From the IMG/VR virus record IMGVR_UViG_3300037071_001475, positions 1 to 40,160 of that record: 40,160 bases of DNA; one strand, written 5' to 3'. Below are positions 1 to 36,070 of the stretch, piece by piece; positions within the stretch are counted from its first letter, which is position 1; each line of letters begins with the position of its first letter. Source of the stretch: a virus. Both the position numbers and the translations under genes were made by a program. The notes under the pieces were generated by a model. That model did not search any database, was not told the origin of the DNA, and saw only the letters and a list, made by a program, of their open reading frames with translations.

Positions 1-178
1 GAAAAGGAGAGAGAAAGCCCTCCCGCGGCGCGTGCAACTCCTGAACTTTCCGACCGCCCCCCTTGCGCCGAACGATCCGCTCGAGCGCGTGCGCCAGCCT
101 GTGCTTCGCGCAACGCCCGTCCTTGACCGCGAGGTTGCGGCACCCCTCGGTCTGGCACCACCCTAGGTTGGGTCTCAC
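1..178 (-). CDS. Partial small Cys-rich protein, cut by the window edge
   Basis: The GTG start at 178 shares a GTGA overlap with the stop of the upstream methyltransferase. The frame stays open for 59 codons to the left edge, so the 3' end is missing. Residues 8-25 hold a C-x4-C-x10-C-x2-H pattern (WCQTEGC then CAKH), likely a zinc knuckle, followed by an Arg/Lys-rich stretch. Similar N-termini occur in phage HNH proteins encoded beside terminase, but no HNH motif is present in the visible part, so no function is assigned. If the two window ends were joined, the frame would continue to a TAG at 40048, giving a 96-aa protein ending 26 nt before the small terminase. That is inference only. Confidence 0.55.
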   Translation of the reverse strand, partial: MRPNLGWCQTEGCRNLAVKDGRCAKHRLAHALERIVRRKGGGRKVQELHAPREGFLSPF

Positions 179-753
179 AGTGGCCACAGATCGAGCGTCA
201 TCGGTGCCACGTCGGGGATGGATGCCAGCGGTGGACCCAGATTGAACGGTTCTGCCGGTAGGTAGCAGCGGAAGAACCCTCCGGTGGGGGTGTCGACGTT
301 GCGGGCCTTGTCCCGGTGGTTGGTGCTGGCGATCAGGTAGCGGGCGCCTGAGTCCCGGAAGTTATCCACAGCCTTGAGTGCGTCCTCGATGCTCAGGTGC
401 TGCAGAACATGGCGGCACATGATCGCGTCCACCATGGGTAGATGGTCCTCGACCACGTCACCGAGCATGAATGACCAGGTGGGGTGGCGTTCTTGGGCTA
501 CCTCGAGGGCTTCTGGCACGATGTCCACACCGATATAGCCGGGGAGCTCGGGCTGCCAGAGTGCCTCGTTGCACCCTGCATCCAGGACGGAGCGGATGTC
601 ATAGGCTCTGACCAGGGCTTTCAGGGCCGGACCGAGGGCTTGAGTGGCCTCGAGCGTGGAGTCCTTGCCGGCCTTGTTCTCACCCCACAGGTTGTCGCGG
701 TAGATCTCCCCGAAGACGTGCCGCCTTCCAGTGACCGTAGAACCTGTGACCAT
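175..753 (-). CDS. Class I SAM-dependent methyltransferase
   Basis: 192 aa. Rossmann-type motif I is VLDAGC at residues 56-61. It is followed by an acidic motif II (VDIVPEALE) and a motif IV/post-I stretch, CRHVLQHLS, usual for small-molecule or sugar methyltransferases. The usual Gly after the motif I Cys is replaced by Asn-Glu. The gene overlaps the GT2 gene by 74 nt and ends the glycan-type run TagD-GT2-methyltransferase, so a role in methylating a transferred sugar or polyol is plausible but inferred. A DnaA-box-like 9-mer, TTATCCACA, lies inside it at 362-370. The substrate is unknown. A nucleic-acid target seems less likely because no catalytic motif of DNA methyltransferases is visible. 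Confidence 0.8.
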   Translation of the reverse strand: MVTGSTVTGRRHVFGEIYRDNLWGENKAGKDSTLEATQALGPALKALVRAYDIRSVLDAGCNEALWQPELPGYIGVDIVPEALEVAQERHPTWSFMLGDVVEDHLPMVDAIMCRHVLQHLSIEDALKAVDNFRDSGARYLIASTNHRDKARNVDTPTGGFFRCYLPAEPFNLGPPLASIPDVAPMTLDLWPL

Positions 754-1378
754 ATCTGCCCACCAGTCGTTCGTATTCGTCCCTCAGCTGGCCTTCGTCC
801 ATGAGATGCAGGGCGTGGTGCTTGGCCACCTGGCGGATCGCCACCTCCGGGACCCTGCCTACCCAGTAGCCGGCCATGTCCACCTCGATCGCGTAGGCCG
901 TGTCGGCGTAGGCCAAGGTGAACGTCTCGTCCAAGGGACCCACGTTCTCCAGGATCTCCCTCGGCATGACCCACAACGGGCCGAAGAAAGCGCCTCTGCG
1001 GGCCTGCGTCTTGGCGGATTCGGGGATGTTGCCGTATTCCATGGGGGTAGCGAGGCCAGGACGGCGCTCGAGCGCCTTGAGCATGGGGGTGAGCCAGCCG
1101 TAGGGGACCTCGATATCGGCACTTCCGACCGCAAGATAGTCGCCTCGAGCCACCTGGAAGCCCCGATTGACGCCGCCGGCGAACCCGCGGTTAGGGTCCA
1201 GGCGGATGTAGATGTCGGCCATATCCTCGAACGGGTTCGGCAGGCTGCTGGCGTTGTCCACCACGATCAGTTCGTGGTTCTCGGGGGTGCCTTCGGAGAA
1301 GCTGCGGAGCGCACCCATGGCGAGCTCGACGTTGGCTGGATCCTTGGCGTAGATCGGGACGATCACCGAGGTCAGCAC
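680..1378 (-). CDS. GT2-family glycosyltransferase
   Basis: 232 aa, GTG start. The N-terminus (SVIVPIY, then LIVVDNASS, then the NRGFAGGVNRG segment) is the classic nucleotide-sugar binding half of inverting GT-A family 2 enzymes. The DxD-like metal site appears as SADIE, and an acceptor-side segment (GPLDETFTLAYADTAY) resembles the conserved ED-hD region. No membrane segment is seen, so it is probably a soluble cytoplasmic transferase. It overlaps the TagD-like gene by 7 nt upstream and the methyltransferase by 74 nt downstream. It likely transfers a sugar to a phage structural protein or a host surface glycan; donor and acceptor cannot be read from sequence. Confidence 0.85.
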   Translation of the reverse strand: MLTSVIVPIYAKDPANVELAMGALRSFSEGTPENHELIVVDNASSLPNPFEDMADIYIRLDPNRGFAGGVNRGFQVARGDYLAVGSADIEVPYGWLTPMLKALERRPGLATPMEYGNIPESAKTQARRGAFFGPLWVMPREILENVGPLDETFTLAYADTAYAIEVDMAGYWVGRVPEVAIRQVAKHHALHLMDEGQLRDEYERLVGRYGHRFYGHWKAARLRGDLPRQPVG

Positions 1379-1797
1379 AGACGCTCCTTGATGATCGACG
1401 TAGAGATACCAGGGGTGTAGCCCACGAAGGCGACTGTGATGTCGAGTTGCGTGAGCAGTTCCGCCGACATGCCGATCTGGGCGCAGTAGTCCTTGGAGAG
1501 CCAGTCGGAACCAACAATCAGGATGTCAGGGAGCAGTTCCTGGATCACGTCGCCGCCAGGGCCGTCGTTGAGGACGGTTTCGTAGCCGAGCTCGCCGATC
1601 AGCGCCCTGCGTTCGTCCTCGGTGAACATCGGCGCGGTGCCTTTGTAGTCCTCGACGAAGGCGTCAGAGTTCACACCGACGATCAACTCGTCGCACAGAC
1701 GTTGGGCTTTCAGCAGGAAACTGGCGTGGCCGGCGTGCGGTATGTCGAACGAGCCCAACGTCAGCCCGATCGTCGAAGATAGCGTGCTGTCCCTCAT
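1372..1797 (-). CDS. TagD-like glycerol-3-phosphate (or related) cytidylyltransferase
   Basis: 141 aa, close to the size of TagD/GCT. The two family signatures are present: HxGH as HAGH at residues 21-24, binding CTP phosphates, and the C-terminal ISTS at 131-134 in the setting YTPGISTSIIKERL (TagD has the very similar GISTTKIK). An RxxLI-type segment also fits. The family makes CDP-glycerol, CDP-ribitol or ADP/CDP-heptose-type donors. The closeness of the ISTS region favours the TagD group. The ATG at 1797 precedes the first beta strand (IGLTLGSFD), so a shorter start would remove essential residues. It is followed by GT2 and methyltransferase genes, and a TagF-like gene lies at 33088-34119. 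Confidence 0.8.
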   Translation of the reverse strand: MRDSTLSSTIGLTLGSFDIPHAGHASFLLKAQRLCDELIVGVNSDAFVEDYKGTAPMFTEDERRALIGELGYETVLNDGPGGDVIQELLPDILIVGSDWLSKDYCAQIGMSAELLTQLDITVAFVGYTPGISTSIIKERLC

Positions 1798-2739: not shown

Positions 2740-3166
2740 CGAGTCTCCCTTCCGTACTAGGCTTAGGGGTTTCCCCTACCGCGGCGTGCCGGCGAGCTCT
2801 CCGCTCCGGGCCGATCTCCGGGTCCGTGTCCAGCCAAGCGTCCAGGATCGCCTGTCCGCCGCGCTCAAGGTTCCGTTCAGCGGATCGCAGGTCCCTCTCC
2901 GCCCGCAGGATCCGCCCCGATGCGAACGCACACGCTCCCTGCAGACGGTGGAACTCATACCCCGCCTGCGATGTGGTGTCTGATCCCCCCGAATGACGGG
3001 AGCCGAGCTTGCCCGAGCCCGATCTGAGTGCGGAGAGGCCGGCGTCGTGGGCCAGGACGAAGTCCTTCATGGCCTCCTCGAGTTCCTGGCGGATCCCTTC
3101 CAGGAGCTCAAGTTGCCGCCGGTGGGATTGCCGTACCCTGTCGACGGACGGGACGGCCTTGGCCAT
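2732..3166 (-). CDS. Hypothetical helical protein
   Basis: 144 aa, ATG at 3166 in a TGATG overlap with the upstream gene. The sequence is rich in Arg, Glu and Ala with long predicted helices: residues 10-50 (RQSHRRQLELLEGIRQELEE) and 75-115 (ILRAERDLRSAERNLERGG), suggesting a coiled coil. No catalytic motif, membrane segment or Cys cluster is seen. It is the last member of the run of small genes whose upstream neighbours carry the EPIQDD start repeat, but it lacks that repeat itself. Function not recognised. Confidence 0.7.
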   Translation of the reverse strand: MAKAVPSVDRVRQSHRRQLELLEGIRQELEEAMKDFVLAHDAGLSALRSGSGKLGSRHSGGSDTTSQAGYEFHRLQGACAFASGRILRAERDLRSAERNLERGGQAILDAWLDTDPEIGPERRARRHAAVGETPKPSTEGRLGA

Positions 3167-3396
3167 CAGATCTGCGCCATCAAGTGCTCCAGGTGCTCGA
3201 TCGCCTTATCCCTGTTGCCCATCTCACCGGCATGTTCAGCATCGAGGAATCGCTGGACCGCGCGTTCTAGCTGTCGCACACGGCGAGCACAGAGCTTCAA
3301 CGCCTCGATGTCGTCCTGTATGGGTTCCCGATTGCTCATGTTCCACGTTCCTTCTTCCATGAAGTTGCGCGGTCGGTCGTCCTGTATGGGTTCCAT
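3166..3396 (-). CDS. Small protein with two EPIQDD repeats at its N-terminus
   Basis: 76 aa from ATG at 3396, in a TGATG overlap with the stop of the gene before it. The N-terminus is MEPIQDDR. A second in-frame copy follows an internal ATG at 3339 with its own AAGGA-type ribosome site (MSNREPIQDD), so the true product may be 57 aa. The rest is a charged helix (KLCARRVRQLERAVQRFLDAE). The two copies come from two of the four 19-bp repeats of this region, suggesting that the gene start was duplicated. Function unknown. Confidence 0.6.
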   Translation of the reverse strand: MEPIQDDRPRNFMEEGTWNMSNREPIQDDIEALKLCARRVRQLERAVQRFLDAEHAGEMGNRDKAIEHLEHLMAQI

Positions 3397-3959
3397 CACA
3401 GGTTCCGGTGAGCATCAACCGCTTCGAGCGCCCGGTGCATCTTGTCGTGGAAGACCCGCACCCACATCTCGACAGGGGTCGTGTCGATGAGCTGTTCCAG
3501 CATGGCGTCGGCAACGCGGGCGCACGACAGCACATCCTCGATACGAACGAGCTGGTCCTTGGTCAGAACGTTCTTGCTCATCATCTTCCTCTCCTCACGC
3601 GGGATCTCCTGTCGGTCGTCCTGTGTGGGTTCCATCAGCCCGCCTCTTCCGTTTCCGTCTTGGTCAATGCTTCGCGGGCGGCACGACAGAACGAATCGCA
3701 GGCGCTATCGCCGTCGGGGTCATCCATCATGGCTTGAATCTTCCGGCCCGTGCAGTTCACGCTATGCCAGCGACCGTCGGCGTATTCGTGTCCCGCCAGT
3801 TCTAGCGCCCAGATGAGTCGGCCACGTTCGGCTACCAAGCGGTCGAGAGCGGCGTAGGCGGGGTCAGCCTCGTCACCCATCATCTCGCTGTAGTCGTCCA
3901 GCGAAGCTCGCACGATGTCGAAGTCGCTCCTTGTCGGTCGGTCGTCCTGTATGGGTTCC
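3310..3959 (-). repeat. Four-copy 19-bp repeat at small-gene starts
   Basis: On the minus strand the core GGAACCCATACAGGACGAC lies at 3328-3310, 3394-3376, 3633-3615 (one change, A to G) and 3959-3941. Three copies begin with the ATG of a gene in a TGATG junction (3396, 3635, 3961); the fourth lies 10 nt after an internal ATG (3339). All are read in the same frame as EP(I/T)QDD. Confidence 0.85.
3396..3635 (-). CDS. Small protein with EPTQDD start repeat
   Basis: 79 aa from ATG at 3635 (TGATG overlap with the preceding stop). It starts MEPTQDDR, encoded by a repeat copy with one base change. About 17 codons in, an AGAGGAAG site precedes a second start (MMSKNVLTKDQLVRIEDVL) that could give a 62-aa product. 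The body is alpha-helical (VADAMLEQLIDTTPVEMWVRVFHDKM) and resembles no domain I know. If the inner start is used, the repeat would act as an untranslated or leader-peptide element rather than as part of the protein. Confidence 0.6.
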   Translation of the reverse strand: MEPTQDDRQEIPREERKMMSKNVLTKDQLVRIEDVLSCARVADAMLEQLIDTTPVEMWVRVFHDKMHRALEAVDAHRNL

Positions 3960-3961
3960 AT
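3635..3961 (-). CDS. Small acidic protein with EPIQDD start repeat
   Basis: 108 aa from ATG at 3961, again a TGATG junction. The N-terminus MEPIQDDRP is encoded by a copy of the shared repeat. The remainder is acidic with a GHEYADGRWHS segment followed by two Cys (CTG and CDSFC), possibly a small metal site. An AAGGAG lies just after the repeat at about 3929, but no well-placed ATG follows it, only GTG codons. Function not recognised. Confidence 0.65.
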   Translation of the reverse strand: MEPIQDDRPTRSDFDIVRASLDDYSEMMGDEADPAYAALDRLVAERGRLIWALELAGHEYADGRWHSVNCTGRKIQAMMDDPDGDSACDSFCRAAREALTKTETEEAG

Positions 3962-4407
3962 CACGACGCCTGCAATCGTTCGAGAGCGTCCGCGGCCTTC
4001 TCGGCGGGATCGTGCAGCGATGCCGCATACACCAGCGCGTAGTCGACCCCGCAGGCTTTGAAGAACGCCTCATCGACGCGGAACGCCGTCTGCCACATGT
4101 GATGCGCCGCGCAGAGCGGGATGCAGCCGTCGTAAGCATCGCCGAGCAGCCGGGAGCGCCAGCGTGTCGCGTGACGTGACCGGGTGACGACGTGGGCCGC
4201 TTGCATGTTGCCCGAGCATCGGGGCAGTTCCTTGCGCCAGGTCCGGCCGTCGTAAGTCGTCTGCTCGATCCACGCGATGTCCCGCGCTCGACACGGGCCG
4301 GATTCACGGATGAGTTTCTGGAACGCATCGTCGGCCTGTTTGAGGACGCTGTTGCCCTTCCGCTTCATCGGCTTGCGCTTGAGCGCCGTCTTCCTGGCTA
4401 AGACCAT
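3961..4407 (-). CDS. HNH/NinG-like nuclease
   Basis: 148 aa. The ATG at 4407 overlaps the preceding stop (TGATG); longer starts would run into the lysozyme-like gene. A basic N-terminus (KTALKRKPMKRKG) is followed by CRARD, then a core with C, MQAAHV (the first HNH His), a segment R-H-x-T-R-W, and GCIPLCAAHH (second Cys plus His pair). This Cys/His layout resembles phage NinG/Rap-type recombination nucleases and DUF968-like HNH proteins that cut branched DNA. A role in resolving replication or recombination intermediates is inferred from family resemblance and from its place downstream of the replication genes. Confidence 0.7.
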   Translation of the reverse strand: MVLARKTALKRKPMKRKGNSVLKQADDAFQKLIRESGPCRARDIAWIEQTTYDGRTWRKELPRCSGNMQAAHVVTRSRHATRWRSRLLGDAYDGCIPLCAAHHMWQTAFRVDEAFFKACGVDYALVYAASLHDPAEKAADALERLQAS

Positions 4408-6082: not shown

Positions 6083-6243
6083 CCGAGATCACCGTCTCTT
6101 TCCCAATCGAACGGCAGCCGAGCGGAACTCACACGCAGTTCGGCATCGAACGTCAGGCACGCGCAGATGCCGCAGCCGATCCAGGTCCCGGAGCGGATGT
6201 GGCTCGTCATCCGATGCCCGCAGGCGCAGACGAAGTAGGTCAC
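6079..6243 (-). CDS. 54-aa zinc-ribbon protein
   Basis: GTG at 6243, overlapping the methyltransferase stop as GTGA; its own stop overlaps the next GTG. The product begins MTYFVCACGHRM and has CGICAC at residues 24-29, so C6-x-C8 and C24-x2-C27 can form a four-Cys zinc site. The C-terminal part is charged. It is too short to be found by size cut-offs, but both junctions fit translational coupling. Probably a nucleic-acid or protein-binding ribbon. Function unknown. Confidence 0.65.
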   Translation of the reverse strand: MTYFVCACGHRMTSHIRSGTWIGCGICACLTFDAELRVSSARLPFDWERDGDLG

Positions 6244-7193
6244 ACGAACCCCTCTTGCTGCTCGCCCTGCGTACCTATGGACTCCAAACTCTTGACCGCT
6301 TGGCGGTAATAGCTAGGCTTCAACTCGATTCCGATTCCACGTCGGCCAGCGGTCACGGCCCCGTAGACCTCGGACCCGACACCCATGAACGGTGTTAGAA
6401 CCGTCTCGCCGGGGTTGGACCACAGCACCACCGCGCGGTCAATCACGTCCAGCTGAAGCGGATGGATGTGCTTCTCGTCCTCTTGGTCGCGGGCCGCGCG
6501 ATACGGCAGCACTCGGTCGACGCGCACGTCATCCCAGAACGCTGAAGCGTACTGACGCCAGATCCAGTGGGAGTAACGGTTCTCGGTTTGCTTCCCCGTC
6601 CACCCTCGGTAACGCAGGAGTTCGGGGGGAACCACTCGCTCGCCGGCATACTCCATGAGGCCAACCGGGTGCGTGATCGGGACTGGGTTGTCGCCCTTGG
6701 CGCGGAAAATCAGCAGGTAATCCGCCGACGCTACAGCGCACCGAGATGAATCCTCGACCAGGGTCCGATGCGCGAGGTCCTTCCGCATGGTCCGGTTGCG
6801 GACAGCTAGCGGTTCCTTCCAGACGTGATAACGCGCGACGTAGTTGAACCCGAGACGCTGGTGCAGGCGGATGATGTCACCGGGGAAGTCCGCGAGAGCA
6901 TCACGCCCCGAGTTGCCGGTCGGAACGTCCATGCAGTGGACCGCCGACATCCGCCCCGGCATCGTGAGTCGGGCGATCTCCTGCACGAAGAACTCGTAGT
7001 GCTCGAAGAACTCGCCATAGTCGCGCGTGTTCGATAGGTCGCGTTCGCTCGACGTGTACTGATATAGGCCAGCGAACGGTGGGGAGTAGATCGTGAGATG
7101 CACCGACCCATCCGGCAGGGTCGGCATGACCTCCATCGCATCACCGTTGTACACAGCGAAGCGGTCGGTGATGAGCTGATCTAGGACAGCCAT
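6240..7193 (-). CDS. Beta-class DNA methyltransferase (N4-cytosine or N6-adenine type)
   Basis: 317 aa from ATG at 7193, chosen for the strong GGAGG site upstream. It overlaps the helicase gene by 13 nt. Motif IV (catalytic) is SPPF at residues 37-40 and motif I (SAM binding) is FMGVGS at 269-274. Motif IV before motif I defines the beta class. SPPF rather than DPPY leaves N4-cytosine and N6-adenine both possible. The middle (about 120-230) is the likely target-recognition region. There is no restriction nuclease beside it, so self-protection against host restriction, or regulation, is more likely than a restriction-modification pair. Confidence 0.88.
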   Translation of the reverse strand: MAVLDQLITDRFAVYNGDAMEVMPTLPDGSVHLTIYSPPFAGLYQYTSSERDLSNTRDYGEFFEHYEFFVQEIARLTMPGRMSAVHCMDVPTGNSGRDALADFPGDIIRLHQRLGFNYVARYHVWKEPLAVRNRTMRKDLAHRTLVEDSSRCAVASADYLLIFRAKGDNPVPITHPVGLMEYAGERVVPPELLRYRGWTGKQTENRYSHWIWRQYASAFWDDVRVDRVLPYRAARDQEDEKHIHPLQLDVIDRAVVLWSNPGETVLTPFMGVGSEVYGAVTAGRRGIGIELKPSYYRQAVKSLESIGTQGEQQEGFV

Positions 7194-8572
7194 GCGGGAA
7201 CCTCCGTGGGGACATCGAAGTCCTGAGTCCTGCGGATGCCGAGTGCGTCGTTCATGTGCGCCACGAGCGCGTCGAACATCCGGTCTGCCTGCGTCGCTTT
7301 GCGTTGCAGGTTGTTCAGGGCTTGCTCCCCGCCCTTGGTAGTGATGATGTCGACCAGCACGGGGAACTCTTGCCCAAACCTCCACGAGCGTCGGACCGCC
7401 TGGTAATACTGCTCGTAGCTGTGGGAAGGGAAGAACGTCATCCGGTGGCAGTGCTGCCAGTTCAGCCCCCACGCACCGATGACGGGCTTGGTGATAAGCA
7501 CTCGGATCTCCCCGCGCCCGAACGCGGTCAGGGCTTCTTCCTTCGCGTCGATGTCGTCGCTGCCGCTGACCTGTACCGCATCGGGAATGACCTGCGCGAG
7601 CAAGTCCCCTTCGGCGTTCAGTTGGCACCAGGCGACGGCAGACTCCGCATCGGCCAACAACTCGCCCACCATCTCGCACCGCTCGGTGATCGTGCGCCGC
7701 GCTTCGTCCCGCTCCTCCCGCAGTCCAACGGCGGGGAGTTCGAATAGCCGACCTTCGGGAAGGGTGCGCGCCTCAACAACATGCTGCGCGTGCTCGAGCG
7801 GCGGCAGGATGAACCCATCGTCATCGAACCCGAGATCCGAGGGACGACGGATCGCTCGAGCCCATGACGCCACCCAGCGCCAGAACGCATCCTCCGCGTG
7901 ACCCTTGAACCGCCACTTCGCCCGGTCGTATCGAGCCGAGAAGTTCGAGCCGCGTTGCAGAATCGTGCGCGGGCTCGATGTGTTCTGGTCGTTCTTGAAG
8001 AACCGCGCCAGCATGTCCATGTGGCCGAGTTCCCCGAGAGCTTCGCTCGAGGTCCCAAGCTCGATGTAATCGTTCGGCGCTGCCGTCGCGGTGCACAGCA
8101 GGCGGTACGGCAGCTTCCGCATGAAGTCGGTTACGAGCGCCCTGCGTACACCGTCGAAGGACTTGATCGCGCTCGACTCATCACAGACCACCCCGCCGAA
8201 CTGGTCCCAGTCGAACAGGTGCAGCCGCTCATAGTTCGTGATGGTGATTGGACCAGCAACCGCACCAGTACGGGAGATACCGGCCTCGATACCGAACTTC
8301 TCGGCCTCGAACTCGGTCTGGTACGACACGGCGAGCGGGGTGAGCAATAGCACGGGCTTGCCGGTTTGGCGATGGACGTTCTCAGCCCAGACCAGTTGCA
8401 TCGGAGTCTTGCCCAAGCCGCAGTCAGCGAAGATGGCTGCGCGACCCTTGCGGATGGACCATTCGACCAGCGCCCGCTGGAACTCGAATAGAAACTCGGG
8501 CATCCACACCGGGTCGAACCCGGAGTCGCCACCCAACTGAGTCTTGCGCTCGAGGAACGTGGCGTAGCTCAC
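7181..8572 (-). CDS. SF2/SNF2-like DNA helicase-ATPase
   Basis: 463 aa from GTG at 8572 (GTGA overlap). Walker A is CGLGKT at residues 51-56. Walker B is VVCDESS with DESS at 131-134 in place of DEAD/DEAH. Motif III is TATAAPND. The C-terminal RecA half ends with QAVRRSWRFGQ, the motif VI form typical of SNF2/RapA-type ATPases. It acts in the cytoplasm on duplex or branched DNA. Because it lies between an annealing-type protein and the methyltransferase, replication, recombination or remodelling are all possible. No nuclease domain is attached. The length suits a minimal two-domain phage helicase. Confidence 0.88.
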   Translation of the reverse strand: MSYATFLERKTQLGGDSGFDPVWMPEFLFEFQRALVEWSIRKGRAAIFADCGLGKTPMQLVWAENVHRQTGKPVLLLTPLAVSYQTEFEAEKFGIEAGISRTGAVAGPITITNYERLHLFDWDQFGGVVCDESSAIKSFDGVRRALVTDFMRKLPYRLLCTATAAPNDYIELGTSSEALGELGHMDMLARFFKNDQNTSSPRTILQRGSNFSARYDRAKWRFKGHAEDAFWRWVASWARAIRRPSDLGFDDDGFILPPLEHAQHVVEARTLPEGRLFELPAVGLREERDEARRTITERCEMVGELLADAESAVAWCQLNAEGDLLAQVIPDAVQVSGSDDIDAKEEALTAFGRGEIRVLITKPVIGAWGLNWQHCHRMTFFPSHSYEQYYQAVRRSWRFGQEFPVLVDIITTKGGEQALNNLQRKATQADRMFDALVAHMNDALGIRRTQDFDVPTEVPAWLS

Positions 8573-9228
8573 CCCACCAGATCCTTCCGAACCTCGACCT
8601 CTTCGATGGGCGCGGTGTGGATCGTGACCTTCGCCAGCTTCTCGGCCTTCCCGCAGTCGCAGACGGCCCAGCCTTCTCGGGGAGCTTTCGACCATTCGTG
8701 GATGTGACTCGGAGCGGAGGAGGAGGCAGGAGCCCCCCGAGAGGTTGCGCCCTCCCCCTCCGCATCGCTCGCCTGGTCCACCACGGCAGGCGGAGCGTCC
8801 GAGAGTTCGCCCGAGCCCACTGCACCTTCCCCATGAACAGCAGGCTCGGGACGTTCGGCTACAGGAGCGGCAGCATGGCGGCTTTCTCCCGTAGCCGAGG
8901 CACTCTTGGCCATCTCTTCGCGGGACGGCCGTTTCCCCTTCGGCGCGTAGCCTGCGTTCGCAAGCGCTCGGCCGATCGCGCTCGTTTCGGCCACCTCGAG
9001 CGCCGAGGACTTCATGTTCGCCGGCAGGCTCGACATCGAATCGTGAGCGAGTCCCGTGGCCGTGGGTGGATCGTTGCGGAGCTCGTTGCCGAAGTAGATG
9101 CTCGCCAGGACGATGTAGTCCCCGTCCTCGTGGTGCAGCAGTTCGGTGATGACACGGCCGTAGGGATGATCCGTCCAGAACTGGCGCAGGCGGTCCTCAA
9201 CGGGTTCGTAATCGTCGAGGAAGCTCAT
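8569..9228 (-). CDS. Putative recombination/ssDNA-annealing-type protein with C-terminal zinc motif
   Basis: 219 aa from ATG at 9228 (ATGA overlap). The N-terminal region contains FWTDHPYGRV and VAETSAIGRALANAGYAPKGKRPSREEM, a conserved block seen in actinophage proteins encoded beside recombination functions; I associate it loosely with the ERF/Sak group but cannot prove this. Residues 110-185 are low-complexity Ala/Pro/Ser linker. The C-terminus HEWSKAPREGW followed by CDCGK looks like half of a zinc ribbon. Position just upstream of the helicase fits a DNA transaction role. Confidence 0.55.
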   Translation of the reverse strand: MSFLDDYEPVEDRLRQFWTDHPYGRVITELLHHEDGDYIVLASIYFGNELRNDPPTATGLAHDSMSSLPANMKSSALEVAETSAIGRALANAGYAPKGKRPSREEMAKSASATGESRHAAAPVAERPEPAVHGEGAVGSGELSDAPPAVVDQASDAEGEGATSRGAPASSSAPSHIHEWSKAPREGWAVCDCGKAEKLAKVTIHTAPIEEVEVRKDLVG

Positions 9229-22513: not shown

Positions 22514-23097
22514 GGGCGCCTGTGCGAAAGGTAGTGGTCCAGGGTGATTCGCTCCTCGTCCAGGAGCGCGCTGGCGCCTCCTGAAGAGCCGGGGGCGTTC
22601 GTGTAGGAGTAGCTTCCGATCGTCTCCGACTCCACCTGGCCCGTCTGCGTGCCCTGGGAGACCCAGATACGCGAGGCGAGCTCCAGCGCCACCCTGCGGA
22701 TGTCAGACGGCATCCTGCGGGCTCCGTCCACGTCGGACTCGTGGAATGCGTACCCGTGGTCGTAGTCGACCGTGACGTTCCCGTGGCCCTTCGTCCACAC
22801 GACCCCGTCCGTGCGGTACAGGATCCCCGCATCGTCCAGGTAGAACTCCGGGTCGGCCTCGTCTGCGATCTCGACGGAGTTCACCGCGACGACGGGTCGC
22901 TGCGGGAGCAGCAGGGAATAGGTCCCCGTCCCATCCAGCGTCACCTCGTCCGATTCAACGAGGTTCAGGTACTGGTCGAGGTAGGAGCGGACGATCTCGC
23001 ACGCCGAGTCGATGGCGATGATCGCGAGGTCCGAGGACGTGACGTCCTGACCCAGCTGGTCCGAAAGATCCGCACTGCTGATGAACGGAACCGTCAT
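22510..23097 (-). CDS. Head-tail connector (adaptor) protein
   Basis: 195 aa, ATG at 23097 (TGATG overlap with the upstream stop). Helix-rich N-terminus (FISSADLSDQLGQDVTSSDL, then AIIAIDSACEIVRSYLDQ) with LLPQRPVVAVNSVEI and YRTDGVVWTKGHGNVTVDYDHG is typical of the gp6/gp15-like adaptor family, which forms the ring under the portal. C-terminal helices (LDEERITLDHYLSHRRP) fit too. It is unusual that this gene is about 11 kb from the capsid gene. Confidence 0.85.
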   Translation of the reverse strand: MTVPFISSADLSDQLGQDVTSSDLAIIAIDSACEIVRSYLDQYLNLVESDEVTLDGTGTYSLLLPQRPVVAVNSVEIADEADPEFYLDDAGILYRTDGVVWTKGHGNVTVDYDHGYAFHESDVDGARRMPSDIRRVALELASRIWVSQGTQTGQVESETIGSYSYTNAPGSSGGASALLDEERITLDHYLSHRRP

Positions 23098-23510
23098 CAG
23101 GACTCCGGCATCACGATCGACCAGCCGGTCACGGCCACGTCTACGCCCACAGAAATCGTCACGGTGTTCAACTCAAGCTCTCCCCCGTCACCGGACGCTG
23201 AGCACGTCCCGTCCTCGACGGCGTTGTCGTCGGAGTCGTAGGCGCGGAACCAGCCGGCGTCACCGTTGCCGACACCCTGGACGACGGCGATGGAATCGGC
23301 CACCGCGATACCGGCGCCCGTGGTGCCTGCGGTGTCGAACGACGGGTCCGCGAGGACGACGGTCGCGAGCAGCGTGCCATTCGCGGCATCGTTGGGGGTT
23401 GCAGGACCGGAGCCCGTGCGAATCTCCAGGTAGCCGGGACCTGAACCTGCGTCCAGCAAAGACACGAGCGACTGACAGGCCGCGTTGCGTGTTGCGGTTG
23501 GGATCTTCAC
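23097..23510 (-). CDS. Small structural protein, possible fibre/decoration
   Basis: 137 aa, GTG at 23510 after AAGGAGG, 13 nt downstream of the GH-like gene stop. The sequence (KIPTATRNAACQSLVSLLDA, YLEIRTGSGPATPN, ANGTLLATVVLADPSFDTAG, GWFRAYDSDDNAVEDGTCSA) has the pattern of a family common in phages between portal and connectors, often a small beta-structured head or fibre protein. C-terminal VTISVGVDVAVTGWSIVMPES ends in a hydrophobic strand. It probably assembles on the virion. Confidence 0.65.
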   Translation of the reverse strand: MKIPTATRNAACQSLVSLLDAGSGPGYLEIRTGSGPATPNDAANGTLLATVVLADPSFDTAGTTGAGIAVADSIAVVQGVGNGDAGWFRAYDSDDNAVEDGTCSASGDGGELELNTVTISVGVDVAVTGWSIVMPES

Positions 23511-23523
23511 CTTGCCTCCTTCA

Positions 23524-25416
23524 CTAAGGCTGGCGGACCAGCCATTCTTCGCCGGACCCGACCAGCCATTCGTCCCCAGAACCGACAGGCCATTCGTCCC
23601 AGCGGATGAGCTCTGCCCGCAGGGACTGGGTGAACATCGGCATCGTCTGCTCGATGTCCCCGACGGCCGTGGTGGTGATGAGCCCGAGCGCCGCCTGTGC
23701 GAAGGCGGGAGCCGTCTGGGTGATCGCGCCCGTGGGGTTGAGATAGATCGCCGCGGCCTGGGTGAACGCCGGGATCGACTGCGCGATGACGACGGTGATC
23801 TCGAGCGTCGCGTCCGCGGCCTGGGTGAATCCGGGAACGACCTGGTCGATGCGTCCACCGACGGTGTCGTGCGGGACGATCGAGCCGACGAGTAGCTGGG
23901 TGAACGCCGGCATGATGTGCGCGACGTCGGGTGCCGTCTGGAAGGCGTCTTCCTGGAAAGCGTCTTCCTGGAACGTCGTGACACGGCTTCCGATGATCCC
24001 GCGCACGAGCATGTCGACGGTGCCAGACTGCGTGAACGCCCCGAGGGTTTGGGAGGCGGAGGCGGGGACCGAGACCGTGGCGTCCGCGGACTGCGTGAAC
24101 GCGCCGAGTTCCTGCGCGATCTCCGCAAGATAGGCCGCGAGTGCCGAGGCCGTCTGGGTGAACCCGGGCATCGTCTGCGCGATAACCGCGGAGACGACGT
24201 TCAGCGGTTCGGATTGGAACGTGTCCGTCTGGAAAGCGTCGTTCTGGAACGCCGGGAGGACCGTGAGGACCCCGCCGCCGTCCCACGTTGCTACCGGGTC
24301 ATCCCAGACGACGTCGGTTGAGTCCCAGACGATGCCCGTAGCACCCCATGCTGCATTCTGAGAGATGGCGACGAACCCGTCCCAGTCGTTCTGAGTCGTG
24401 TCGATCGTCCAGATCATCGTGACGGTCGAGTCCCAGTAGCACAGATGATGCAGAAGTGGCCAGGACGTCTGGATGTAGTCGGCCATGTTCTGGAACCAGT
24501 TGAACTTCGTCGGCGCGAGTCCAGTAGCAGTCCACGTCGCGTGTGACGTGGTGTAGAACGAGTTCGCCTGACACCCTGTCTCCCAAATCGCAGCGAGGAA
24601 CATCTTGCCCGCGGCGGCTTGGGATGTCCGTTTCGCATCCGTCCAAGACTTGAACGTCTGGAAGATGTAGGACAGCGGCTTCATCACCGCGCCGTTGTTG
24701 TATCCATCACCAGCGGCACAGATCATGTTCGCGTTCAGCCACGTATGACCCGGCGGCCACCATGTATCCCAGTCGTCCTCGTAACCTCCCGAGGTTTCTC
24801 CCGAGATGAGGTTGATCGACAGGATGATGCCCTCCGGGACGGTGGTTCCGTTCCAGAACCGCACGCCGAGTCCCTGCCAGATCGTGACGATGTTCTGGAT
24901 CGCGGCCTGCCAGTCCGTGACCAACATCCCAGCCCCACCCGAGTCGTTGTTCGGCTCGTGGTGGAACGTCCAAGCGAACGTGCAACCGAAGCGTCCTTGA
25001 CCGATGTGAGAGTCCTGCCACGTCTTGATCGCGTTCCCGCGGGTGACGATGTTGTTGTAGATCGTCCCCGACGCTGCGGCCCCGACCTGCGCCCACGTCG
25101 CACCCGCGTACTTGGATGACATCACCGGCAAGCGTTGCATCTCGAAGTCCGCCGTGGCATGACCCGAGAGCCGCCCGAACACGTTATCCGCGTTGGGGGG
25201 CCACGAGTCCGTGATGTCGTCGTAATGGCGACGGTCCGCACCGAAGACGAACGTCTGTCCCGAGTCCGTGGTGACCTTGGCTTCTTCGCAGGCGATGATG
25301 TAGCCCGACCCGCAGGAACGGTTGACGACCACGCCGGCGGTGTTCGCGGCGGAGACCCCGAGAAGCGTCACGGGCAGGCCATAGCTAGACCACCACTTCG
25401 GTCCCGAACGCCTCAT
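23524..25416 (-). CDS. Glycoside-hydrolase-like tail protein with FTQ repeats
   Basis: 630 aa, ATG at 25416, overlapping the upstream spike gene by 32 nt. Residues about 50-370 resemble a TIM-barrel glycosidase. HHEPN at 152-156 (E154) fits the acid/base site of the GH26-like clan, and AAIWETGC (E279) fits the nucleophile strand. Trp-rich segments (DDWDTWWPPGHTW; MADYIQTSWPLLHH) fit sugar binding. From ~380 the protein consists of FQ-x-DAFQ units and eight or so Q-x-x-P-x-F-T-Q repeats. It ends in a DEWPVGSG-type repeat. Likely a tail-borne depolymerase or receptor-binding enzyme; the glycosidase fold is inferred. Confidence 0.65.
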   Translation of the reverse strand: MRRSGPKWWSSYGLPVTLLGVSAANTAGVVVNRSCGSGYIIACEEAKVTTDSGQTFVFGADRRHYDDITDSWPPNADNVFGRLSGHATADFEMQRLPVMSSKYAGATWAQVGAAASGTIYNNIVTRGNAIKTWQDSHIGQGRFGCTFAWTFHHEPNNDSGGAGMLVTDWQAAIQNIVTIWQGLGVRFWNGTTVPEGIILSINLISGETSGGYEDDWDTWWPPGHTWLNANMICAAGDGYNNGAVMKPLSYIFQTFKSWTDAKRTSQAAAGKMFLAAIWETGCQANSFYTTSHATWTATGLAPTKFNWFQNMADYIQTSWPLLHHLCYWDSTVTMIWTIDTTQNDWDGFVAISQNAAWGATGIVWDSTDVVWDDPVATWDGGGVLTVLPAFQNDAFQTDTFQSEPLNVVSAVIAQTMPGFTQTASALAAYLAEIAQELGAFTQSADATVSVPASASQTLGAFTQSGTVDMLVRGIIGSRVTTFQEDAFQEDAFQTAPDVAHIMPAFTQLLVGSIVPHDTVGGRIDQVVPGFTQAADATLEITVVIAQSIPAFTQAAAIYLNPTGAITQTAPAFAQAALGLITTTAVGDIEQTMPMFTQSLRAELIRWDEWPVGSGDEWLVGSGEEWLVRQP

Positions 25417-27235
25417 GTCCCGCCGAGCGGAACTGCGCGAGGGTCATGGTGCTGTCAGCGATGTAGTACGTCGATCCGACCGTCGCGACGTGATACTCGT
25501 TGAAATCGAAGTGATTATTGGCTGCCGGGGCCGTGATGAGGTTCCGGTTGCTCACGTCGTACAGACCGCTTCGAGGTGCCTGCGCCACCGAGCCGCGCTC
25601 ATAGATGCGGTTGTGGTGCACGTACCAGTTGCGGGTCGCAGCCTCGGGGTGCCAGGTGCCGTCGATCAGGGCGACCCCGTTGGCACGGTTCGAGCAGTCG
25701 AGGTCGTTGTAACGCACCTCACTCGTGATGTTCGGTCCAGGGAAAGCTCCGGTCGAGGTCCCATCGGCCGCTGCACAGGAGACGAGGACGGCCGCGTTGT
25801 TGTATGGGTTGTTCACGCCCCCATAGGAAGGTGGCGAGGTCGGGTCTGCGAGCCCGGTGTTGATGCAGTAGTTGTGTTCGCAGATGGTCCCGCCGTACAC
25901 GACCTCCAAGAAGATGTCCGCCAGCGTGTTGTTCTCGCACACGTTGTCGTGAACCGAGAGGTTCGACACCCCGGTGTCCCACCACAGCCCGAAGCCGTAG
26001 TTGTTCTTGACCCAGTTGTATCGAGCGATGTCCCCGGCGGTGAGGACGAACTTCGTTGCGCTCGCATCGCCGCCGGGGTTGTAGGACGGGGACGCGATCT
26101 GGGCACGACCGCCGAGGTTGTTGTTGTCGATGATGCAGTATTCGAGGATGTTCCCGATCGTCCCTACCGGCCCGACCGCAGGGGTAGCGTTGCCTCCACC
26201 GTTGCAGCCATAGCGGAAGTTGTTCGACATCGTACAATGCGAGACCCTGGTCCCCATATGGCTCAGGTTGTCTCCGTGCAGCGTCACGCCGATCTCGTTG
26301 CCTGTGAGGATCGCGTCCTCTATGACAGACTGGGTCACGCCGCCTGCCGCGTGGATAGGGGTGGCCCACTTAGGCCCGGCTCCCTGGACCCCGTAGCCGC
26401 TCCATGTTCCACCGCGTACTTCAAGACCACCCACACCGTCGAAGCCAAAGATGCTACCGGCTCCCGTGATGTTGTACGAAGAGGCCGCGCCGGGGAACCA
26501 GAACCTCGGATGATCGGAGGTGATGCTCAGGTTTCGGAAGTTGGTGTAGGTCCCGGCGCCCGAGGCGACGAAGATCGTGTTGGCAGGGTTCCCGTCGATG
26601 AGCGTCTGGATGTTCGACGCCGAGTTGAACGACACGCCCCCGCCGGGTGAGGCGACGGTGCGTGGCCCTGCACCGTCGCGCACGGACTGGGCGCCTGCGA
26701 GTGGGCCGAATGGACTTGAGGGAACGAACGGGAACGATACCGTTGCCACCGTCCCCGCCAATGACACCTGCACGTCGGTGCCGACGAAGTTGAAGGTCGT
26801 CGCTAGGCCAAGAGTTACCCCTTCGTCCTGTACCTGGACGATCCCGCCCGAGTGCTTGGCGGATGTGTGGACGTCGGCGTGGTGCTGATCGACCGTGACG
26901 CCGGAGAGCAGGGTGTGGGAGTCATGAGCCACCGAGCCGTGTGCGTGATCCTCGCGGGCGTAGTCCGTGTCCACGCCGACGACGGGGGACTGCCCATAGG
27001 CAACACCGCTCGTCACGGTGGTCGCAGGTGTCCCGCCACCCCCACCCCCCGAAACCGTCCAGGTCGTCGCAGATGCTGCCTTGTATTGGATGTTCGTGTC
27101 CAGCGCGAGTGCGGTATCTCCGAGCTTGAGGCCCGAGGTCGGCAGTTCGGCGGTGGTCGTGCAGACGTAGTGGACGGGGTGGCTCGTCAGCGCGACGTTG
27201 TTGATATCCACCTGTGCGTAGCGTTTGACGCTCAT
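25385..27235 (-). CDS. Beta-helix tail spike with His-rich collar
   Basis: 616 aa, ATG at 27235 after AGGAAGG; longer versions would overlap the 1309-aa gene. Residues 1-65 are a fibre-type N-terminus (KRYAQVDINNVALTSHPVHY). Residues ~85-125 carry a His-rich collar (DHAHGSVAHDSH and HHADVHTSAKH) able to bind metal in a trimer. From about 200 on, repeated short strands with G, N and S turns (FRNLSITSDHPRFWF; GGLEVRGGTWSGYG; VSHCTMSNNFRYG; NILEYCIIDNNNLGG; NLSVHDNVCENNTLADIFLE) form a right-handed parallel beta-helix, as in spikes that cleave surface polysaccharide. The catalytic site is not identified. Confidence 0.8.
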   Translation of the reverse strand: MSVKRYAQVDINNVALTSHPVHYVCTTTAELPTSGLKLGDTALALDTNIQYKAASATTWTVSGGGGGGTPATTVTSGVAYGQSPVVGVDTDYAREDHAHGSVAHDSHTLLSGVTVDQHHADVHTSAKHSGGIVQVQDEGVTLGLATTFNFVGTDVQVSLAGTVATVSFPFVPSSPFGPLAGAQSVRDGAGPRTVASPGGGVSFNSASNIQTLIDGNPANTIFVASGAGTYTNFRNLSITSDHPRFWFPGAASSYNITGAGSIFGFDGVGGLEVRGGTWSGYGVQGAGPKWATPIHAAGGVTQSVIEDAILTGNEIGVTLHGDNLSHMGTRVSHCTMSNNFRYGCNGGGNATPAVGPVGTIGNILEYCIIDNNNLGGRAQIASPSYNPGGDASATKFVLTAGDIARYNWVKNNYGFGLWWDTGVSNLSVHDNVCENNTLADIFLEVVYGGTICEHNYCINTGLADPTSPPSYGGVNNPYNNAAVLVSCAAADGTSTGAFPGPNITSEVRYNDLDCSNRANGVALIDGTWHPEAATRNWYVHHNRIYERGSVAQAPRSGLYDVSNRNLITAPAANNHFDFNEYHVATVGSTYYIADSTMTLAQFRSAGHEAFGTEVVV

Positions 27236-27246
27236 GCGATCCCTTC

Positions 27247-30200
27247 CTAGCGGATGAGCAACCAGTCCAGCGTCCCGCCACCGACCGGGCACGCTACGCC
27301 GAAGTGAACGTCGAACCCATTCATCCGCTTCGCGGTCACGGCGACGGTCGTGTCCCAACTCGCGACGGGCACCACCGTGTAGGCCGTATCGGGTTCCCAT
27401 CCGGTTTGGTCGGTCGAATGGAGCCACTTCGACCCGTCCCAGTCGGCGTGTGAGGCCGAGGGTGTTGGGGTGAGGATCTGCGTGTATCCCGAGATGGGAT
27501 GGCCGGTCCACGCCAGACGCAGTTCAGTACCCCGGTCGATAACCGTGCGTCGACCACCCGTGTTGGAAACATTCATCGAGAAGATGGGTCGGTACGGGAA
27601 CACGTCGTAGCGCGTGGTGTAGACGCCCGAGGCTGCACCCCGGTAGAGCGTGAACCCCTCCAGGAAGGTGTCACTGGTGAGGAAGTTCCCGAGTTGGAGG
27701 GAAGCGTTCGTCGGGGCGACAAGCGCGACCGATGTGGTGGCGATCGCTGGCCGTGGTCCTCCGGTCGTTCGCCGAGAGGCCACGGCCCAGAACACCGTTC
27801 CGTTCAACGTCCCTGTTCCGGCGCTCGCTGCGGCGGAGATGAACGTGAGGTCTGGGTATGCCCTAGTGGGAAATGGAACCGTCATGGTGAGCGCACCCGC
27901 CGCCACCACCGCTGACCCTCTGAGATTATTCCCAGCGGTAGACGTGGACGATACCGCCCGGACGTTCTTGGTCGGTTCGCTCTTGAGGTCCAGCCCGGTT
28001 GGGAACCAGGCATCTTCCGCGAGGATCGTGCCCTTCCATGTCTGCGGGTAGCGAGTCTTCCACGGACCGGGATCAAGCAGGATGTTCGATTGAGGTCCCT
28101 CGTTCGGCTGCATCGCGCGGTCGGTCTGACTCCGTGCAACCGTCGCAAGCTCAGCGATCTGGAACGGCCCTGAGCTATCGGGCGCGGTTGTGAACTGGAC
28201 AGGGAACGCATCGAAGGGATAGGCGGTGGTGATGTCGGAGATCGTGCAGTTGGGCATCGACACATTGAGCGGCTCATCCACACCGAGCGTCGGCGTCAGC
28301 CGAACATGCCGGATGATGCTGCCTCCCCGTCCTTGCCAACCACCACCGAATGTCTGCAACGTCGAGGAGCCCGTGACCGTGAGCTTGCCTGCAACCAGCC
28401 CGTCGATGAACACTCGCGTACCTGTGAGCGTGGTCTGGATGAAGCCGAAGTCGCAGTCGACGATCTCGATCCCTGCTCCGACGATAGACACGATGCCCTG
28501 TTGGTTATAACGCGTGCTGCATCGGACGTTCCGCATCTTGATGCCGAATATGACGTCCTGGATGGCGATGTGTGACACCTTCGGAGATACGAACTCGACA
28601 TCGTTCAGGACCAGTTCGCCGCGGTCGGCATATTCCCATTCAACGTCGATGCCTTGCCCCCCGCAAGCCGCGAACCGCGAACGCTCGATGAGCCAAGGAC
28701 CGCCCGACATGAGCGACAAACCCTGACGGCCGTTGGCGAACACGTTGCAGTCGCGGATGGTGTTCGTGTGGTTCTTCATCCCCGCCTGACCCGCCTGGAA
28801 GAAGAAGCCATCACCCAGAGGTTTCTGGATGTCGATGTTCTCGAAGACGTTCCCCGAACTCGGCCCCTCAGTGATAGCGAACCCATGCTGGTTGTCTCGG
28901 CGGTCGACCCCGCCATACAACTGCGAGTTGCCGGTACGGCGTTGCCCCGTGTAGTCCGTCCAGTTGTGGATGGTGATCGTGGCGGTAGTTCCATTCACTT
29001 GCCCGATCCGCCAGTTCAGCATCTCCTCTTTGGTCCGCTCGTTCGGGCGCATCTTCACCGTATAGGTGGTCGGCGTGGTGGTGAGCGTCAATCGCACACT
29101 CGGCAGACTGGGAGCGATAGCGTCTTCGGGGATCTCCGCATTCACCGGCCAGAACGGCGGAGCCTGGGATAGGTCCGCAGCTACCCCCGTATCCGTGAAC
29201 GTAGCCTCCCCCGCAGATAGTTCGGCGATGAATCCCGCCGTCCAGTGTTCCTTCGCGGAGCCGGAGATGGTTCGGTAGATCCGCATCTTCGACACTCCGG
29301 TCCACGACGGGAGGGTGAGGGTCGCACCACCATTGACGACCGTAACGAGGCGTCGACCGTGGATATTGGTCTTCACAAGACCCTGGGGGTCGACAGCCCG
29401 TTCGCGGCCGGTGGTGGTATCGACCTGAGTCACGTAGTAGGCATAGGTGGTCGGGGTCAAGCTGCCCGCAGCATCGACCGCACCGGGCAGGGTCAAAGCG
29501 TAGGTGGGGACAGCGGTGGTTGCCGTGTTGTCCACGAAGCTCGTCCAGTAGACGGGAACTTCCGCGATCGGCACTCCCGCGTTCGCTGAGTTAGCGGACG
29601 TCCCGCAGTAGATCCGCTTGGCGATGATCGGCGTTCCTTGGATAGGCGTCGTTGGGACGGGGAGAGCCATGTGGACCCGACCCCATGTGGTCGGTACCGC
29701 TGCCCGCGCCGGACGAGACAATCCAGACTCACGCCCATCGGCATAGACGTATGTCATCCAGTAGTAGTAGGAACCTGCGGGCTTGCCTCCCCATGCGTCG
29801 TAGGTGAACGTCGTTGGAGGCGCTACCGAGGATTGCCCAAGCTCGATGAAACATTGCAGCGATGTTGACGCAGTTGTAGAGAGCGTGAAATCCGCCCGTA
29901 TGAATCCATCCTCGTCCTCAGCCTGCCAAGCGGGCTCAGGGGTCGTCGCCATCGCCCCACCCGTGAGCGTCATCGTGGACGTCACCACAGCAGCGGTACC
30001 GACCAGCCCGATATCGACGAGGTTCGAGCCCGGAAGAACACCCGTACCGTAGTTGGCGTGAGTGAACACCAGGCGCATGTTGCGGAACGTGCAGTCGTTG
30101 ACATGCTCCAAGATCCACATTCCGCCCGTAGAGCCGAGGTGGTAAAACGTCGCACCGTTGCCGTCGATCGTGATGTTCTTCTTGTTCCGGATGGTGACAC

Positions 30201-31176: not shown

Positions 31177-31880
31177 ATCGGGATACTCCCTACGAACTCC
31201 GTGTCACCGGAAGACGCCTTCAGTTCCACCATGGCTAAAGTGGACCGCGCGCTAGAGTGTGTCCACGTCGCCGTGATGTCGGTCGTGTCCGGATCGCTGT
31301 CCCAGGCGACGCGCGCCGCCGTGTTCGGTGAGGCGTGGCCGCGAGACGTGCCCATCGCATCCCAGACACCATTGGCGTCGGCGTCGTTGGACGTCACGGT
31401 CACGGCACTGTTCAGCGCCACACCCGCCGCCGTGAATCTGGCATCACCAGCGACCACTGATGCTACGGTGGTGAACGATTTGGTGACGGAGGTGGCAGCG
31501 GTTCCCAGCGCGACCGTGGCGGTCTGCACGATCGCTCCGGCACCGTTGCTGCCCGATGCGTCCATGCCCGTCACCTCGATGAGATGCCAGATACAGCCCG
31601 TACCTGTCGCGACGTTGATGTCGATAGTGTCCGTCACCGTTGAGGTGGGAAGGGCACGCATGATCTTCACGTTGTGACCGACGGCGTTGCCCACGTTGGT
31701 GACCTGATCGAACGTGATCGCGGCCCCTGTGGTCGTTGCTGATACCGTCACGCTGTTCGGGTTGAAGCACACGCTCAACAGGTACAGCCGCCCTGCCGTC
31801 AACGTGACCGATGCTGTGGTGTACGTAGTACGGTCGGTGGCATCCGTGCCGGTCGTCAGTTCCGAGAACGCGATAGCCAC
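31173..31880 (-). CDS. Small beta-rich tail/fibre-associated protein
   Basis: 235 aa, GTG at 31880, 3 nt after the fibre-repeat gene stop. The sequence (FSELTTGTDATDRTTYTTAS; YLLSVCFNPNSVTVSATTTG; IMRALPTSTVTDTIDINVAT; WHLIEVTGMDASGSNG; STLAMVELKASSG) is Thr/Ala/Val-rich beta and matches the jelly-roll pattern of surface-exposed phage decoration or fibre-tip proteins. The spacing of these segments fits a concanavalin-like sandwich of about 200 residues. Position inside the fibre module supports a structural role. Confidence 0.65.
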   Translation of the reverse strand: MAIAFSELTTGTDATDRTTYTTASVTLTAGRLYLLSVCFNPNSVTVSATTTGAAITFDQVTNVGNAVGHNVKIMRALPTSTVTDTIDINVATGTGCIWHLIEVTGMDASGSNGAGAIVQTATVALGTAATSVTKSFTTVASVVAGDARFTAAGVALNSAVTVTSNDADANGVWDAMGTSRGHASPNTAARVAWDSDPDTTDITATWTHSSARSTLAMVELKASSGDTEFVGSIPI

Positions 31881-31883
31881 GAC

Positions 31884-32657: not shown

Positions 32658-32666
32658 CGAGCCTCC

Positions 32667-32864
32667 TCAGATAAGTAACAGGACGAGTTCGTCGTCGTTC
32701 ACGTTCGCTTCGAGGTGTTGGGTGAATGCGGGCATCGTCTGACGGATCGGGCCGAAGACCATGAACAGCACGAACTCGACGTGGTCGATGTCGGATTCGG
32801 GTTGCGGCGCGACACCCCCGACCTGGAAAGCATCGGCCTGGAAAGCATCGGCCTGGAAGGCCAC
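32667..32864 (-). CDS. Small fibre-linked protein with AFQAD repeats
   Basis: 65 aa, GTG at 32864 sharing its G with the upstream TAG. It starts MAFQADAFQADAFQVGG, three FQ units encoded by a near-perfect 15-bp tandem repeat (32826-32860), and has one RQTMPAFTQ unit near the C-terminus. Both motifs recur in the GH-like tail protein 7 kb away, so the two genes share modules. It may be a fragment or a separately made partner of that protein. Confidence 0.6.
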   Translation of the reverse strand: MAFQADAFQADAFQVGGVAPQPESDIDHVEFVLFMVFGPIRQTMPAFTQHLEANVNDDELVLLLI

Positions 32865-33124
32865 TAGTCCTCTTCCGTCTCCTCGATCACGGTGAACCCG
32901 GAGATGAGTCCGTCCTCATCGCGGGTGAAGAACGTCCCGGAGTCTTTCGCGATGACCGCCACTATCCGCCCGTTCTTGTCGCGGCGGACCTTCTTGCGCT
33001 CGACGGAGATGACGTACTTCCCGCGGCCGATCTCCTCTTCGCCCTCGACCTCTTCGAGCGTGTTCAGGTCGTCGAGTTCGGCGGCGGCTATGCGCTTACG
33101 GATATCGGCGAGTTCGTCTGCCAT
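32864..33124 (-). CDS. Small acidic/basic hypothetical protein
   Basis: 86 aa, ATG at 33124, overlapping the GT-B gene by 37 nt. Residues 1-33 are a charged helix (ADIRKRIAAAELDDLNTLEE). Residues 36-75 alternate strands (GKYVISVERKKVRRDKNGRI, VAVIAKDSGTFFTRDEDGL) and the protein ends acidic (EETEED). No known motif. It is coupled at both ends, between the glycan-transfer genes and the fibre genes. Confidence 0.65.
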   Translation of the reverse strand: MADELADIRKRIAAAELDDLNTLEEVEGEEEIGRGKYVISVERKKVRRDKNGRIVAVIAKDSGTFFTRDEDGLISGFTVIEETEED

Positions 33125-34119: not shown

Positions 34120-34120
34120 G

Positions 34121-36068: not shown

Positions 36069-36070
36069 CA

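Follow-up and report, generated by a model that had tools for sequence, protein, structure and literature searches.

Putative virion-glycosylation gene sets with a probable CTP-type donor enzyme in an uncultured phage probably infecting actinobacteria

Virion glycosylation has, to our knowledge, been shown for only a few mycobacteriophages. The genes that belong to such gene sets adjoin the capsid gene or sit upstream of the terminase. For example, Mycobacterium phage Ariel has the order portal, protease, major capsid protein (MCP), two glycosyltransferases (GTs), kinase, methyltransferase, GT, and connector, and in prophiGD91-2, GTs and methyltransferases are found just upstream of the terminase. 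Glycans have been shown in the literature for only some of these phages; a passage in PMC11256854, citing Freeman 2023, places them on the capsid proteins of the cluster F1 phages Che8 and Rita. A second group of described enzymes comprises TagD of B. subtilis and TarD of S. aureus, which are CTP:glycerol-3-phosphate cytidylyltransferases, and the PF04464 polyol-phosphate transferases TagF, TarL, and Cps3D. Genes of the same kinds have been found in phages. GCT-type genes were reported in phages CRP-6 (PMC6918029) and S-SZBM1 (PMC9146016), where their role was called unclear, and a CDP-glycerol glycerophosphotransferase gene was reported in phage SP-15 (PMC5977210). The locus described here resembles these three phages in carrying such genes, and the parts are therefore not new. 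An earlier note on this DNA had suggested that a phage-encoded CDP-glycerol-type route would be a novelty; that phages carry genes of this type had already been reported.

The window, i.e., the whole stretch of DNA analyzed here, spans 40,160 bases and comes from the viral database IMG/VR, which classes the record as linear. Five genes that the earlier note had proposed as decoration enzymes were confirmed in it, as were the HAGH and ISTS motifs of one of them. The five genes, the MCP gene, and the region between the capsid and connector-like genes are as follows.

175 to 753, minus strand: SAM methyltransferase (phrog_3382; Methyltransf_25/11)
680 to 1378, minus strand: GT2 glycosyltransferase (PF00535)
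1372 to 1797, minus strand: nucleotidyltransferase of a cytidylyltransferase-like family, with HAGH and GISTS motifs (PF01467, phrog_7878)
23097 to 34720, minus strand: MCP-to-connector region, with GT25-like, TagF-like, and fibre-like proteins
33088 to 34119, minus strand: TagF-like GT-B transferase, a distant PF04464 match with H84 in EHG, GSPKMD, H199-x-H201-P, and DASS
34121 to 34720, minus strand: GT25-like glucosyltransferase (phrog_854), homolog of Ramsey gp108
34746 to 36071, minus strand: major capsid protein (phrog_10), a candidate acceptor, with the GT25-like and TagF-like genes directly after it

The principal genes read on the minus strand, beginning at the right end with TerS, TerL, portal, protease, and MCP. 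These are followed by the GT25-like gene, the TagF-like gene, several fibre-like genes, connector- and tail-like genes, and then a lysis and DNA region. At the left end, the nucleotidyltransferase, GT2, and methyltransferase genes follow one another in this order. The earlier note had considered that the ends might join, which would make these genes flank the head module; however, no terminal repeat was found, joining the ends gave no convincing gene, and the record is classed as linear. The portal and capsid proteins have their nearest counterparts (28 to 38% identity) in phages of Arthrobacter, Microbacterium, and Curtobacterium, and the host is therefore probably an actinobacterium. A DNA search of phage records with positions 1 to 24000 gave no match, and single-protein searches of IMG/VR found no close relatives of the window, so that its host and completeness are judged from weak protein similarity. 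Neither an RNA family nor a tRNA was detected in the window. A short Cys/His-rich open frame (2-187) runs off the left end, and at 6243-8695 a DNA methylase (N6_N4_Mtase) lies beside a helicase-like gene whose Walker motif reads ADCGLGKT.

The nucleotidyltransferase has 141 amino acids and contains the motifs G15-S-F-D18-I-P-H21-A-G-H24 and G130-I-S-T-S134. It matched PF01467 at 59.7 bits (cut-off, 21; E value, 4.5e-16), so the match is not due to chance. The superfamily core (G15, D18, H21, H24, K52, R63, D98, W99, and S132) could be aligned in it. The HAGH and ISTS motifs belong to the whole superfamily and alone do not mark a CDP-glycerol enzyme. When the window protein was searched by itself, it scored 72.7 bits against TIGR02199 (RfaE domain II or HldE C-domain; cut-off, 181.5) compared to 37.8 bits against TIGR01518 (GCT/TagD; cut-off, 165.4), below the cut-off in both cases, and its best PHROG is named HldE. 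The family, on the other hand, was closer to CTP enzymes. First, the alignment of 23 members had its best E value to TIGR01518 (5e-28, compared to 1e-22 for TIGR02199). Second, a profile search of the PDB with this alignment ranked Pcyt2 (117 bits), TagD (95), TarD (89), and Fom1 (89), all of which are CTP enzymes, above HldC (58), and in hhalign the family scored 148 with TagD as its partner, compared to 100 with HldE of E. coli. Third, the predicted structure (pLDDT, 90.8) matched TagD (1coz) with Z 17.4 and 1.6 Å over 122 residues, compared to Z 14.8 for HldC; this model was built from the family alignment, and the fold and profile evidence are not fully independent. These comparisons support a cytidylyltransferase-like family that is closest in profile and fold to TagD, Pcyt2, and Fom1. 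The earlier description of the gene as TagD-like thus holds for the family, but the window copy by itself scores nearer the heptose type.

Alignment of individual residues was similarly mixed. The window protein shares with TagD and TarD the HxGH motif, K44, R55, D94-W95, and T-x-G-I-S-T (TagD numbering), whereas K46, R63, D66, and R113 are lost, with T, G, and Y at positions 46, 63, and 113, respectively. The RTxGISTT signature of TagD, which includes R113, reads YTPGISTS. The same Y is typical of the family overall and was found in 21 of 22 contig relatives, whereas the enzymes of the Streptomyces phages (Stanwilliamsviridae) and Arthrobacter phage Atuin have R at this position. The window copy and its family also have an insert of about 10 residues after GSDW (DYxxQxG...) that neither TagD nor HldE contains. 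In the tree, the window protein formed a long branch of uncertain placement, and a clade with HldE-type proteins was not rejected (p-AU 0.18, compared to 0.10 for a clade with the contig and actinophage family). Because of this long branch and the lost TagD residues, the window copy may use another substrate. Sequence and model together point to a cytidylyltransferase-like enzyme for a small-phosphate substrate, possibly other than that of TagD.

The scores of the window copy by itself, its PHROG, and the tree could also be explained if the protein were heptose-1-phosphate adenylyltransferase-like and supplied an ADP-sugar to the adjacent GT2. However, its TIGR02199 score is far below the cut-off, it has W99 where HldE has Y, and the family profile and fold favor CTP enzymes. 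Furthermore, a non-exhaustive reading of the window open reading frames turned up no gene for a heptose kinase, isomerase, or phosphatase. We therefore consider a heptose-type enzyme improbable in this locus. Other phage contigs (loci L074, L076, L085, L091, L100, L107, L108, and L117) encode nucleotidyltransferases that do fall with HldE of E. coli in the tree, some of them extended at the N terminus, and phages may carry true ADP-heptose-type enzymes as well.

Relatives of the nucleotidyltransferase occur in 103 phage records, 63 of them from Streptomyces phages, and in at least 575 IMG/VR stretches. Their gene context is recurrent. Of 24 contigs in which the gene is intact, 21 have a small GT gene immediately before it and overlapping it, and 20 have a head-tail adaptor after it. 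The full order MCP-GT4-GT2-nucleotidyltransferase is present in 15; most of the remaining contigs end too early to show it. Mutual identity among the capsid proteins of the contigs is 28 to 90% (median, 48%), which means that they are not one phage resampled. In the Streptomyces and Arthrobacter phages, the nucleotidyltransferase gene comes after two GT genes. The Stanwilliamsviridae and Atuin sets are like the window in that an enzyme of the same family, with the DYxxQxG insert, is coupled to a small GT, and unlike it in that their GTs have no detectable homology to the window GT2. Indeed, when the GT partners were compared between the three groups (window, contigs, and actinophages), no homology was detectable, so that the nucleotidyltransferase is the constant part of these gene sets. 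A capsid-linked cassette with this enzyme was not described in the literature searched, which covered few subscription journals. Diverse phages thus show the order of an MCP, two GTs, and an enzyme of the CTP type, and this recurrence suggests that there is a wider class of phages that also supply the activated donor themselves.

The window GT2 (61.9 bits to PF00535) is coupled to the nucleotidyltransferase by a GTG start that overlaps the end of that gene by 7 nt. It had no match in phage records, no detectable homology to the small GT whose gene accompanies that of the nucleotidyltransferase elsewhere among phages, and weak similarity to GtrB-like and other wall-type enzymes. This similarity, together with the ability of phage glycosyltransferases to change host serotype (PMC12619734), would fit enzymes that modify the host envelope, leading to receptor masking or superinfection exclusion, instead of the virion. 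Such a role appears doubtful to us, given that the gene families recur within the head modules of many phages and have homologs in glycosylation-type sets of mycobacteriophages.

These homologs are those of the GT25-like and methyltransferase genes. The 34121-34720 protein has no Pfam match but is assigned to phrog_854 ("glucosyltransferase") with an E value of 4e-19. Its homologs were found in 346 phage records, 334 of which are Mycobacterium phages, including Ramsey (cluster F1, genus Cheoctovirus), whose gp108 is 31% identical. As in the mycobacteriophage sets that adjoin the capsid gene, the window GT25-like gene comes directly after the capsid gene. The methyltransferase has homologs at 34 to 39% identity in the mycobacteriophage sets, with those of Ariel and prophiGD91-2 lying in the gene orders given above. 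A PADLOC match of the window methyltransferase (mads_2, 21 bits) was set aside, as it looks like a generic methyltransferase match. Unlike the window, the mycobacteriophage regions listed contain no gene annotated as a CTP-type nucleotidyltransferase or as TagF-like. About 11.6 kb separate the capsid gene from the connector-like genes in the window, compared to about 0.3 kb in the related phages Squircle and Andrew. Among its glycosyltransferase and fibre-like genes, this region has one for a 1309-amino-acid beta-helix protein. The fibre-like proteins at 23524-25416 and 32667-32864 have repeats of the types QTMPGFTQ and AFQxDAFQ in common, which suggests repeated binding or oligomerization units.

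The other enzyme in this region, the 33088-34119 protein, scored 18.2 bits against PF04464 by itself, below the cut-off of 22.1. Its family, which consists of 34 viral contigs and virus Rctr41k, had PF04464 as its best match, and the solved sequences that matched it best were Cps3D and TarL. PF04464 was matched at E ≤ 0.01 by 23 of the 25 members in the alignment, and five of seven relatives searched passed the cut-off. This supports PF04464 as the nearest family of the GT-B protein. With TagF, TarL, and Cps3D it shares the GT-B fold and the motif order HG, GxPxxD, H(x)HP, and DxSS. In the alignment to PF04464, H84 in EHG corresponds to TagF H444 in WHG, GSPKMD to GYPRND, and H199-x-H201-P to H584, and DASS is also present. 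Both catalytic histidine positions of TagF, the roles of which are described in PMC11666461, are therefore kept, and H84, H199, and H201 were invariant in 25 sequences. WHG itself is absent, with EHG in the window protein and EHG, QHG, or NHG in its relatives. WHG is found in glycerol-phosphate polymerases, whereas hexose-phosphate transferases have QHG (PMC11666461). The sequence match to the PF04464 enzymes lies mainly in the C-terminal half, and when the family was compared one-to-one by hhalign with a PF04464 protein from an archaeon, the probability was only 32%, for a match in the C-terminal part. The structure model (pLDDT, 87.7) was tied between a UDP-GlcNAc 2-epimerase (Z 21.5) and TagF (Z 21.2); the match to PF02350, the non-hydrolysing UDP-GlcNAc 2-epimerase family, was 16.9 bits, under the cut-off of 30.6. 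Because of the EHG motif, the occurrence of QHG in hexose-phosphate transferases, and the tied fold, the protein may transfer sugar-phosphate, polyol-phosphate, or sugar. Thus, the earlier assignment as a TagF-like GT-B enzyme stood as far as family and histidines are concerned.

Like the nucleotidyltransferase relatives, the TagF-like genes recur near head genes. A head gene was located within 3 kb in 19 of 35 loci and, in addition, the TagF-like gene of L034 comes directly after the capsid gene; the head genes concerned span four head-gene families. In L008, L011, and L012, the neighbor of the TagF-like gene is a homolog of the window methyltransferase. Across the TagF-like loci L009 to L012, L020, L022, and L026, the protein is frequently a fusion with another domain, about 260 amino acids long, which in L010 matched Nucleotid_trans (PF03407) just below the cut-off. 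In several loci a related separate gene follows, and in others MptE-like or rhamnosyltransferase-like genes are nearby.

If both assignments were taken at face value, the TagD-type enzyme would make CDP-glycerol or CDP-ribitol, and the TagF-like enzyme would place the polyol-phosphate on the virion or wall as a teichoic-acid-like coat. The TagD-like profile and fold of one family, the PF04464, Cps3D, and TarL matches and conserved catalytic histidine positions of the other, and the SP-15 precedent are consistent with this. However, the two families were not found together in any other viral record searched. A nucleotidyltransferase of the window family was found in none of 35 TagF-like viral records searched in full, and a TagF-like protein was found in none of at least 30 viral nucleotidyltransferase records, including three complete phage genomes (129 to 194 kb), or in two cellular genomes searched that carry the nucleotidyltransferase. 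Altogether, both families were present in 0 of 67 other viral records searched, many of which are fragments, while the positive controls (the window and known carriers) were detected. This lack of co-occurrence weakens the pairing, and an obligate TagD-to-TagF route is not supported. PF04464 was present in 5 of 15 cellular genomes carrying the nucleotidyltransferase family. The earlier note had presented the two genes as a matched pair and had named beforehand their never occurring together in related phages as evidence against it; the records searched go against the pair in this respect, and the higher TIGR02199 score of the window copy, the missing R of RTEGISTT, and EHG instead of WHG point the same way. 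Given also the Y at TagD R113 in the window and nearly all contig relatives, a teichoic-acid-like coat on virion or wall is unlikely. We also have little confidence in a particular version of it. Here, phages would produce a CDP-activated block themselves with the nucleotidyltransferase, whose gene lies next to the capsid gene in many contigs, and a TagF-like phosphotransferase, in this phage and in others, would attach a teichoic-acid-like group to capsid or fibres through a phosphate link.

The SP-15 gene also raises another possibility. It is of the PF04464 type and lies in a base-hypermodification cluster, and DNA modification was proposed for it (PMC5977210), so the window enzymes might hypermodify phage DNA, and the window does have a DNA methylase gene. 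No hydroxymethylpyrimidine synthase or kinase was seen in the non-exhaustive set of window open reading frames read, however, and the enzymes are linked to head genes and not to nucleotide metabolism. DNA hypermodification is very unlikely here.

The explanation that we favor, at a probability of roughly 0.55, is that the genes form two small cassettes for virion glycosylation, with a donor enzyme probably of the CTP type, in a phage whose host is probably an actinobacterium. Decoration of the virion, already suggested in the earlier note, is better supported because the GT25-like and methyltransferase genes are homologous to those of mycobacteriophage cassettes, the TagF-like relatives adjoin head genes, and MCP-GT4-GT2-nucleotidyltransferase is found in 15 of 24 contigs. 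Against it, the nucleotidyltransferase set of the window is located at the far end, away from the capsid gene. The GT25-like protein, and probably also GT2, would attach sugar to a protein of the capsid, tail, or fibres while the particle is being assembled. Most likely with CTP, the nucleotidyltransferase would convert a small phosphate compound to its nucleotide-activated form, and the glycosyltransferase coupled to it would use this product as donor; candidate substrates are a polyol-, amino-alcohol-, or sugar-phosphate. The TagF-like enzyme would add sugar-phosphate, polyol-phosphate, or sugar, and the methyltransferase would cap the glycan. Candidate acceptors are the MCP, tail proteins, or the 23097-34720 fibre proteins, and the benefit may be shielding of the particle or altered adsorption. 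The analysis shows what the genes are, how they are ordered, to which families they belong at the superfamily level, and that related genes are repeatedly linked to head genes in phages unrelated to one another. We infer acceptor, donor, glycan, and benefit from the genes of an uncultured contig, and the glycan is thus a prediction. On this reading, phage virion glycosylation would here include a CTP-type donor enzyme. The idea is testable, since cultured phages carry related sets (phages of Streptomyces and Arthrobacter) or methyltransferase/GT sets (phages of Mycobacterium). It also offers a possible role for the phage "GCT" genes listed as auxiliary, although those reported in CRP-6 and its marine relatives belong to a tree branch different from that of the window family.

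Finally, three small tandem genes at 3166-3964 start with the same N-terminal peptide (MEPIQDDR or close to it). Over the gene starts lies a 35-nt block with copies at 3372, 3611, and 3937 (77 to 89% identity), which may represent a start region that was copied or an element with a regulatory role.
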